DNA of 64,000 nt, taken from Actinomycetota bacterium. Its GTDB lineage: Bacteria; Actinomycetota; Acidimicrobiia; Acidimicrobiales; Ilumatobacteraceae. The notes below the pieces were generated by a model, which was not told the DNA's origin, did not search any database, and worked only from the letters and a program-made list of their open reading frames with translations. The DNA lies in assembly GCA_009919275.1 (NCBI GenBank), contig RGCG01000001.1, positions 1 to 64,000 on the forward strand. The letters run 5' to 3'. Every line of letters begins with the position of its first letter. The stretch's first letter is position 1. Made by a program: the position numbers and the translations under genes. Shown one piece after another: positions 2,862-6,480 of the stretch.

Positions 2862-3857
2862 ATGGCACATCGCATTGCAGTCATTGGCGGCGACGGCATC
2901 GGACCCGAAGTGACGGTCGAAGCCCTGAAGGTCATCCGGGCGGCAGGAGTCGACGTTGCCACCACCGACTTCGACCTGGGCGGGGCGCGCTTCTTGCGCG
3001 ATGGCGAGATTCTCTCCGACGCGACGCTGAACCAGCTCCGCGATTTCGACGCCATCCTCCTGGGTGCCGTGGGGACACCCGATGTGCCACCCGGTGTCAT
3101 CGAGCGCGGCCTCCTGTTGAAAATGCGCTTCGAGCTCGATCTCTACGTCAACCAGCGCCCCTTCATCGGAACCGCTCCCGGCCACTCGAAGCCGCACGAC
3201 TTCATTGTCATCCGCGAGAACACCGAAGGGCCCTACGTCGGTGAAGGCGGGGTTTTGCGCAAGGGCACGTTGAACGAGGTCGCAACTCAGGGAAGTGTGA
3301 ACACGCGCATGGGTGTCGAGCGGTGTGTTCGCTACGCCTTCGAGCTTGCGTCGAAGCGCGACCGCAAGCACGTCACGTTGGTCCACAAGACGAACGTGCT
3401 CACTTTCGCCGGGGATTTGTGGCAACGCACCTTCGACATAGTGGCAAAGGAGTTCCCGAACGTCGGAACCGCCTACAACCACGTCGACGCGGCGTGCATC
3501 TACTTCGTGCAAGACCCGCACCGCTACGACGTCATCGTCACGGACAACCTGTTTGGCGACATCCTCACCGACCTCGGTGGTGCGGTGAGTGGTGGCATCG
3601 GTCTGGCGTCGTCGGCCAATCTGAACCCCGCGCGTACGGGACCCTCGATGTTCGAGCCCGTGCACGGTTCGGCCCCCGACATCGTTGGCACCGGCAAGGC
3701 AAACCCCACGGCTGCGATTCTCTCGGCGGCCCTGATGCTCGACTTTCTCGGTGAAAACGCGGCTGCAACGCGCGTTCGTGCGGCGTGCGCCGAACCAACC
3801 ACGGGTTCCACCAGCGAAATTGCGAACTCGATCGTTGCTCGCCTGACCGCCAAGTAA
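2862..3857 (+). CDS. leuB: 3-isopropylmalate dehydrogenase
   Basis: [84 protein letters not shown]; real start is ATG 2862 inside a longer ORF. Confidence 0.95.
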
Positions 3858-3884: not shown

Positions 3885-4805
3885 ATGCCCACCCTCGTTC
3901 CCACGCCGAAAATCTGGATGAATGGAAAGCTCGTCAATTGGGACGACGCCAAGGTTCACGTTCTCACGCACACCCTGCACTACGGAACGGGCGTGTTCGA
4001 GGGAATCCGTGCGTACGAAACGGCCGAGGGGCCGGCTGTGTTTCGTTTGACCGAACACATCGAGCGCTTGTTCCGCAGTGCGCACATCCTCGGCATGGAG
4101 ATTCCGTTCACGGTGCAGCAAATCATCGATGCAACCAAAGAAACGGTTGCGTCAACCGGACTTCCGGGTTGCTACATCCGCCCAATCGCCTACTACGGCT
4201 ACGGCGAAATGGGTCTCAACACGCTTCCGTGCAGTGTCGATGTCGCCATCGCATGCTGGCCCTGGGGCGCCTACCTGGGTGACGACGCCATGACCAAGGG
4301 CGTGCGCATGAAGATTTCCTCGTGGAAGCGTCTCGACCACAACATGTTGCCGCCCGCTGCCAAGACGGTCGCGAACTACGCCAACTCATCACTCGCCAAA
4401 GTCGAGGCACTCAAGGCCGGCTACGACGAGGCGATTCTTCTGAACAACGAGGGTCTCGTCAGCGAATGCACCGGAGAGAACCTCTTCGTCGTTCGCGGTG
4501 GGTCGGTCATCACGCCACCGTTGTCGGCGGGGGCACTCGAGGGCATCACCCAGGCGAGCGTCATCACCATTCTCGAGGACCTCGGTTACAAGGTCGACAA
4601 GGGCAACATCGCCCGTTCCGACCTCTACATCGCCGAAGAGATCTTCTGCGTTGGTACCGCAGCCGAGGTCAGTGCAATCAACTCGGTCGACGATCGCAAG
4701 GTGCCGTGCCCGGGCCCCATCGCCAAGCAGGTTGCCGAGACGTACGGCAAGGCCGTGCGAGGCCAGATCCCCAAGTACAAGCACTGGTGCGAACTGGCCA
4801 AATAG
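3885..4805 (+). CDS. ilvE: branched-chain-amino-acid aminotransferase
   Basis: [50 protein letters not shown], fold-type IV PLP enzyme motifs. Confidence 0.95.
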
Positions 4806-4963
4806 GGCCGATCGGGGTTGTCTGGGCGACTGTGTGCGCTCTTTGTGACAATCCCCAGACATATCCACAGCGGGGCGCGACAGGCTCGCAGGCCGAGGAA
4901 ATGCAGGAAAATCACGCCTCCCATTGACGAAACGGGATTTCCGGGGGCAAACTGCTCTCCGTG

Positions 4964-5035
4964 ATGTCCACAGCCCGCACCGTTTCGGCCCTTGGGTCCT
5001 TCGGCGTCGTCGCTGCCGTCATCATTATTCCGTAG
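4964..5035 (+). CDS. putative attenuation leader peptide MSTARTVSALGSFGVVAAVIIIP
   Basis: Short ORF 5' of cimA with the VVAAVIII run (GTC GTC GCT GCC GTC ATC ATT ATT) just before the stop, followed by a hairpin and a terminator. Confidence 0.75.
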   Translation: MSTARTVSALGSFGVVAAVIIIP

Positions 5036-5056
5036 CGCACGGGCCACCCCGTGCGC
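5035..5056 (+). promoter_or_regulatory. leader hairpin GCGCACGGG-CCAC-CCCGTGCGC (9-bp perfect stem)
   Basis: Perfect inverted repeat beginning at the last base of the leader-peptide stop codon. Confidence 0.7.
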
Positions 5057-5060
5057 AGCC

Positions 5061-5083
5061 AGCCGCCCACCGGGCGGCTTTTG
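5061..5083 (+). terminator. rho-independent terminator upstream of cimA (attenuator)
   Basis: AGCCGCCC-ACC-GGGCGGCT followed by TTTTG; lies between the leader ORF and the cimA ATG at 5113. Confidence 0.8.
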
Positions 5084-5112
5084 TATTTCCGGAATCAAGA
5101 AAGAGACGTGAG

Positions 5113-6480
5113 ATGAGCACCCAGAGCAACCAGACCGAGAGCAACCCTCAGACCGGGAGCAATTTTGTCGAGGTATTCGACACGACGCTGCGTGACGGCA
5201 TGCAGGTCGAGGGCGTGTCGGCAACGGTGGAAGACAAACTGCGCATTGCCGAGCAACTCGATTTTCTCGGGGTGCATTTCATCGAAGGTGGCTGGCCCGG
5301 CGCCAACCCGAAGGACATCGAGTTTTTCCGTCGCGCAAAGAACGAATTGAAGTTCGCCAACTCCACCCTTGTTGCGTTCGGCTCGACACGCCGTCCGAAG
5401 GGGAAAGTCGACGATGACGTGACCTTGCGCAACTTGATCGAGGCCGAAACCGCGGCCGTGTGCATCGTGGCGAAGTGCTGGGACTACCACGTCGAGCACG
5501 CTCTGCAGACCACCCTCGAAGAAGGAGTGGCGATGGTTGCCGACTCCGTCGAATTTCTGAAGGCGAACGGTCGCCGTGTTTTGGTTGACATGGAGCATTT
5601 CTTCGACGGCTTCAAACGCAATCCCGAGTTCTCGCTGCGCGTGCTCGAGTCGGCCGTCATGAAAGGAGCAACCCATCTCGTGTTGTGTGACACCAACGGT
5701 GGGTCGTTGCCGCACGAAGTGGGCGACATTGTCGCCGCGGTGCGCAAGCACATCGGAGGAGACGCGATCCTTGGTATCCATTGCCACGACGACACGGGTT
5801 GTGCGGTGGCAAACTCAATCTCCGCGGTTGCCGCGGGTGTACGTCACGTACAGGGAACGTTGAATGGTCTCGGCGAGCGCACGGGTAACGCCAACCTCAC
5901 CACCATCATCCCGAACCTTCAGCTGAAGATGGGTTACCGCTGTCTGCCCGACGAGAACATGCCCCGTCTCACGCCGGTCAGCCACCACGTTGCCGAGGTG
6001 TTGAACAGGCCGATGAATCCGCAGGCTCCGTATGTCGGTGCATCCGCATTCGCGCACAAGGCCGGTCTGCACGTCTCTGCGATCGCCCGCGCGAAGGACG
6101 CCTACGAACATGTCGACCCCGAATTGGTCGGCAACGGCACGCGGTTCGTGGTTTCCGAAATGGCCGGCCGCGCCACCATCCAAATGAAAGCCGACGAAAT
6201 TGGTTTGGCGATGGACGGCCCGGCGGTCAACCAGGTGATCGACGACCTGAAGCGTCTCGAGCACGAGGGCTACCACTTCGAGGCCGCCGATGCATCGCTC
6301 GAATTGTTGATGCGCCGCGCCGCGGGTTGGGAGTCACCTTTCTTCACGGTCGAGTCGATGCGCGTCATCACCGACGAGGCAGCCGAAGATCCATCTCACC
6401 GACTACAAGGTGCGCATCCTCGATGGTGCAACGGCGACGGGTGCAGTGACGCGTGTCCTCATCGATGCGACGAACGGTGA
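5113..6480 (+). CDS. cimA: citramalate synthase (CimA/homocitrate-synthase family), 3' end apparently frame-disrupted
   Basis: [86 protein letters not shown]. In-frame ORF ends with unrelated sequence ([16 protein letters not shown]). Confidence 0.9.

Follow-up and report, generated by a model that had tools for sequence, protein, structure and literature searches.

A candidate isoleucine attenuator ahead of citramalate synthase, with a hairpin built on the leader stop codon

The cimA Locus and its Leader

Citramalate synthase is the entry to the threonine-independent route to isoleucine. In the window (by which is meant the whole stretch of 64,000 nucleotides of DNA that was analyzed), the gene for this enzyme, cimA, is preceded by genes for a branched-chain aminotransferase (ilvE) and a leuB-type dehydrogenase, all three names being assigned from curated models. 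On the + strand between the ilvE stop (4805) and the cimA ATG (5113) lies a short leader open reading frame, followed by a hairpin, called here P1, and by an intrinsic terminator, called here T (Table 1). The original prediction described these elements from the letters of the DNA, and its sequence, its hairpins and its coordinates for the TAG, P1, T and the cimA ATG were right.

The cimA frame of the window is itself broken near 6386, where about 143 nt are missing relative to the loci L004 and L033. The encoded protein is truncated in consequence, through either an assembly error or a real deletion.

Table 1. Features of the cimA leader and its neighborhood in the window.
Feature	Position	Strand	Details
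leuB-type dehydrogenase, first of leuB-ilvE-cimA	2871..3857	+	NF002898, 488 bits; start approximate
ilvE, branched-chain aminotransferase, upstream neighbor	3885..4805	+	NF005146, 411 bits
Predicted leader promoter	4924..4953	+	-35 TTGACG 4924-4929, 18-nt spacer, -10 CAAACT 4948-4953
Leader ORF	4961..5035	+	MMSTARTVSALGSFGVVAAVIIIP; GTG 4961 (or ATG 4964) to TAG 5033-5035
Control codons	5018..5029	+	GTC ATC ATT ATT in the window; ATC ATC ATT ATT in most relatives
P1 hairpin	5035..5056	+	9 bp; 5035-5043 pairs with 5048-5056; outermost pair takes the G of TAG
Intrinsic terminator T	5061..5083	+	AGCCGCCC-ACC-GGGCGGCT (5061-5079), then TTTTG
cimA, citramalate synthase, gene predicted to be under control	5113..6480	+	TIGR00977, 558 bits; ATG 5113

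The leader had been thought to open at ATG 4964 and to run for 23 codons. That frame holds; the start itself is more likely the in-frame GTG at 4961, which gives 24 codons. Here, the -10-like CAAACT ends 7 nt ahead of the GTG, and nearly every one of 60 relatives shows a similar geometry, with a -10-like element some 7 nt ahead of the leader start. This element and its like spacing across the family suggest that the leader ORF is probably leaderless and begins at GTG 4961. A strict sigma-70 scan made no call at 4924..4953, the site of the predicted promoter.

Conservation of the Leader in Relatives

Searches with the CimA protein in two partly overlapping collections, in which many of the relatives are metagenome-assembled genomes, delivered 110 loci (L003-L112). 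In 72 of these, 60 of them distinct, the leader ORF, P1 and T stand directly upstream of cimA. The 60 were chosen with TAG required, and the constancy of that codon therefore rests on an earlier scan, open to all three stop codons, in which the conserved site had TAG. Aligning relatives had been proposed as a check in the original prediction, and the check came out in its favor: the leader ORF, its isoleucine codons and T are conserved, and the P1 stem covaries.

The control codons repay closer description. In the window, the leader ORF ends with GTC ATC ATT ATT CCG TAG (5018-5035), while the order conserved in relatives is four isoleucine codons, one further codon, and TAG, with ATC ATC ATT ATT the commonest run. 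The GTC at 5018 is a local variant that replaces the first isoleucine codon of the run in the window species. This means that the signal conserved in these leader sequences is isoleucine and not valine. Thus, of the isoleucine- and valine-sensing attenuator that had been predicted, the isoleucine part is conserved in 60 distinct leaders and the valine part is not.

Codon choice within the run is also uneven. The last control codon (5027-5029 in the window) is ATT in 59 of the 60 cimA leaders; cimA and ilvE of the window together use ATC 32 times and ATT 7 times. Leaders before ilvB likewise prefer GTA. Slow or isoacceptor-specific decoding may lie behind these preferences.

P1 covaries strongly. 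In every one of the 60 cimA leaders, its outermost pair is formed by the G of TAG. When 49 leaders are aligned, 96% of P1 cells pair, and 47 cells have changed on both sides of a pair, against 9.6 in shuffles. None of 500 shuffles reaches P1 on any of five measures, and sliding the partners abolishes the signal. In leaders before ilvB, the third base of the stop codon and its partner change jointly: where the stop is TAG the partner is C, and where it is TAA the partner is U. This joint change indicates that the hairpin includes the stop codon. A CATAT motif is retained in the P1 loop of many leaders before ilvB and leuA (for example L123, L130, L133 and L138 before ilvB, and L175 before leuA), and not in cimA leaders.

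T is found in the window and across the leader alignment. The linker that separates it from P1 has an sd of 1.7 and measures 5 nt in 34 of the 60 leaders, whereas the spacing between T and the cimA coding motif varies with an sd of 25. A constant distance from stop codon to T was considered as the constrained quantity and rejected. P1 span and linker length are uncorrelated (r = 0.01) and the linker is the tighter of the two, so that the linker, rather than the stop-to-T distance, looks constrained. The T stem, GCCGCC/GGCGGC (columns 41-59 of the leader alignment), is near-invariant beyond the needs of a terminator.

Both strands of the window were scanned for a branched-chain codon run, a stop codon within two codons of it, a strong stop-proximal hairpin and a terminator; the one match is the cimA leader. 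In a separate scan, the 64 kb yielded few hairpins with T-tracts, and the 149-nt leader folds better than its shuffles (z -2.76). Because the window holds a single match, 60 distinct relatives share the arrangement and P1 covaries, the leader is, on the sequence evidence, more than chance. When the window stretch and eight loci were searched, no Rfam family, the ilvB-associated motifs included, reached or approached its gathering score.

Not every relative has the leader. One group of loci (L049, L050, L055, L059 and L064) shows it before neither cimA nor leuB, which implies that it is dispensable.

Sister Leaders before ilvB, leuA and leuB

The same genome carries two further leaders of this type. 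The run before ilvB reads GTG GTA GTA GTT CAC TAG, and that before leuA reads CTC CTC CTT ACG TAA. Each continues with a hairpin, placed on the stop codon or right beside it, and then with a terminator, and both leaders recur in relatives. One genome therefore sets an isoleucine run before cimA, a valine run before ilvB and a leucine run before leuA.

Elsewhere in the order are families in which cimA directly adjoins ilvE; there, an isoleucine/valine leader of the same build heads the leuB-ilvE-cimA operon (L101, L102, L103, L105-L109, L111, L160 and L161). These leuB-head leaders retain GGGCGG opposite CCGTCC. Further afield, inspection by eye of several other genomes of the phylum found ilvB leaders with CTC GTA CTT ATC/ATT, one codon, and TAG with a stop hairpin (for example L217, L236, L237 and L239).

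Close to a hundred leaders before three genes thus share one anatomy: control codons, usually one more codon, a stop codon in or beside a hairpin, a short linker, and a terminator.

Ribosome Position and the Folding of the Leader

Folding with a ribosome masked onto the RNA, another check named in the original prediction, gave a divided answer. P1 responds. It is predicted to be closed with a probability of 0.98 when the ribosome is at the first or second isoleucine codon, 0.74 at the third, 0.09 at the fourth, and 0 at the stop codon, and the switch remains inside the isoleucine run for assumed footprint edges from +13 to +17. In this model, the run is so placed that P1 would report whether a ribosome has crossed it. 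T does not respond: its equilibrium probability is about 0.95 in every state. The trpL and thrL leaders of E. coli are equally flat by this measure, and the equilibrium test of T was therefore discarded.

A test on nascent RNA took its place. Here, the RNA was ended at the loop of T and the upstream pairing of the T 5' arm was scored, an antiterminator being called when that pairing was at least 0.5 with the ribosome stalled and below 0.3 with the ribosome at the stop codon. The E. coli leaders gave stall/stop values of 0.75/0.04 (thr), 0.73/0.07 (trp) and 0.84/0.15 (phe); differences were weaker for his, leu and ilv, and the strict criterion recovers three of the six controls. The stall/stop pattern appeared in none of 60 cimA leaders, one of 19 ilvB leaders and none of 16 leuA leaders; since the test is thermodynamic folding with one footprint model, single leaders could be missed by it, and the argument rests on the whole family. 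Mean pairing of the T 5' arm in cimA leaders at the first two isoleucine codons is 0.25 below that at the stop codon.

Two earlier expectations find no support. The classical antiterminator fold implied by the original prediction is seen in no cimA leader by a test that recovers trpL, thrL and pheL, and the alternative pairing suggested between GGCCC at 4987 and GGGCC at 5041 joins stretches, one in the leader coding sequence and one in the P1 loop, neither of which is conserved.

A Proposed Mechanism and its Rivals

The leader has three of the traits by which amino-acid attenuators are recognized: a cluster of pathway-matched codons in a short ORF, an intrinsic terminator before the gene, and an RNA fold predicted to depend on ribosome position. 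The conservation, the covariation, the identity of the codons, and the sister leaders before ilvB and leuA give strong support to isoleucine-responsive, ribosome-mediated transcription attenuation of cimA, which we consider a likely reading of the sequence.

Under such control, the short and probably leaderless ORF would be translated once it is transcribed. With ample Ile-tRNA, the ribosome would pass the isoleucine run, reach the TAG at the base of P1 and hold P1 open; T would then form, and RNA polymerase would stop ahead of cimA. With scarce Ile-tRNA, the ribosome would wait at the first isoleucine codons and P1 would stay closed ahead of it, leading to less termination at T and to the making of cimA. 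Isoleucine starvation would, in short, be expected to raise readthrough.

No base-paired antiterminator was found in the cimA leaders, and base pairing thus does not account for how a stalled ribosome would bring about readthrough. Because P1 and T have no bases in common, we propose, tentatively, a hindrance by proximity: a closed P1, lying about 5 nt upstream, might physically impede T as it zips into the exit channel of the polymerase, with no base pair shared between the two.

The main rival gives P1 only a pausing role, by which the ribosome could catch up with RNA polymerase; antitermination would then be due to coupling between ribosome and polymerase, or to a fold that escaped notice. 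P1 is placed as is the 1:2 hairpin of trp, polymerase pausing would suit a leaderless leader, and in C. glutamicum ilvBNC the first hairpin has been proposed to act in pausing (PMC11857589). Pausing alone, however, does not explain how T is bypassed, nor does it need the narrow linker between P1 and T. This, too, is a reading that we consider less likely than not.

A classical attenuator of the trp/ilv type, in which stalling exposes a segment able to pair with the T 5' arm as an antiterminator, is, of course, the standard mechanism of amino-acid leaders. Proposals of an antiterminator exist both for ilvBNC of C. glutamicum (PMC11857589) and for ilvB1 of M. tuberculosis (PMC13236596), and the near-invariant T stem could hint at a second pairing partner. 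Yet no conserved partner of T was seen, and the near-empty counts of the nascent-RNA test in all three groups of leaders, set against its recovery of half the E. coli controls, make the classical type unlikely here.

That a chance ORF happens to stand before an ordinary terminator, with no regulation at all, is very improbable given the conservation and covariation in 60 leaders, the private isoleucine, valine and leucine runs before three matching genes, and the single match in the window. Least credible of all is hungry-codon frameshifting within the isoleucine run, by which the ribosome would slip past TAG and translate across T: 58 of 60 leaders do have a shifted frame, one of the two, without a stop as far as the end of T, but so do 97% of shuffled sequences, no slippery motif is evident, and the idea was rejected for lack of any excess over shuffles.

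If the hindrance by proximity is true, the cimA leader would be a proximity attenuator, in which a hairpin based on the stop codon reads the position of the ribosome and blocks the adjacent terminator. One chassis would then serve cimA, ilvB and leuA with private isoleucine, valine and leucine runs, with similar stop-flush hairpins before ilvB elsewhere in the phylum. The mode of antitermination in these leaders is reduced to a question for a few point mutations.

Relation to Known Attenuators

Actinobacteria are known to have both leaderless leader peptides and branched-chain attenuators, with examples in C. glutamicum, S. lividans (PMC8079986) and M. tuberculosis. The branched-chain leaders of these bacteria have been described as attenuators whose components are often missing and whose mode of action is unclear (PMC1262725).

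The ilvBNC leader of C. glutamicum (IlvL; the ilvB-II motif; PMC11857589, PMC10272879) shares with the cimA leader a short peptide rich in branched-chain residues and an intrinsic terminator, and has a transcription start adjacent to the start codon, such as is predicted for the cimA leader. Its codons, however, are mixed (isoleucine, valine and leucine) and its target is ilvB, whereas the cimA leader conserves isoleucine only and stands before cimA. Its proposed antiterminator and anti-antiterminator hairpins overlap the terminator; in the cimA leader, the stop codon lies in P1 and no overlapping antiterminator was found.

In M. tuberculosis, the uORF of ilvB1 (PMC13236596) likewise has regulatory branched-chain codons (LVVI), and a structure proposed to form on stalling is masked by a ribosome at the stop codon, a logic like that suggested for P1. 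There, anti-terminator and terminator are presented as mutually exclusive folds before ilvB1, whereas P1 and T, before cimA, are not alternatives for the same bases.

The leaders of E. coli ilvGMEDA (ilvL), trp and thr resemble the cimA leader in having a leader peptide with control codons, a first hairpin and an intrinsic terminator. They differ in their untranslated 5' stretch, which the cimA leader would lack, and, for trp and thr, in sequestering the T 5' arm on stalling in the nascent-RNA test.

Surveys of actinobacterial leaders (PMC1262725, PMC8079986) report ORFs with leucine or mixed runs, often leaderless, before leuA and ilvB, and describe no cimA leader. Their LEU element before leuA is a pseudoknot in which leucine codons pair with the leuA Shine-Dalgarno box, unlike the leuA leaders found here, with their hairpin at or next to the stop codon and their intrinsic terminator. 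The open literature that was searched gave no description of a cimA attenuator or of an isoleucine-specific switch on citramalate synthase, and such a switch is what the present leader would add. Since the antiterminator of the trp type was sought and not found, the cimA leader is filed here as a variant attenuator rather than as a classical member of that type.

A DnaA-box-like Cluster Upstream

The 255 nt upstream of the cimA leader hold, in relatives, a cluster of DnaA-box-like sequences (TTATCCACA, with at most one mismatch), mostly on one strand; the window has one at 4861. Their density is 4.05 per kb there and 0.037 per kb over the remainder of the loci, and examples are seen in L011, L014, L053, L071 and L081. 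A replication origin was considered and is probably not the explanation, given that a relative assembled as a single contig (G023) has dnaA, with the boxes that belong to it, elsewhere in the genome. The cluster may be a DnaA-controlled promoter or a titration site.
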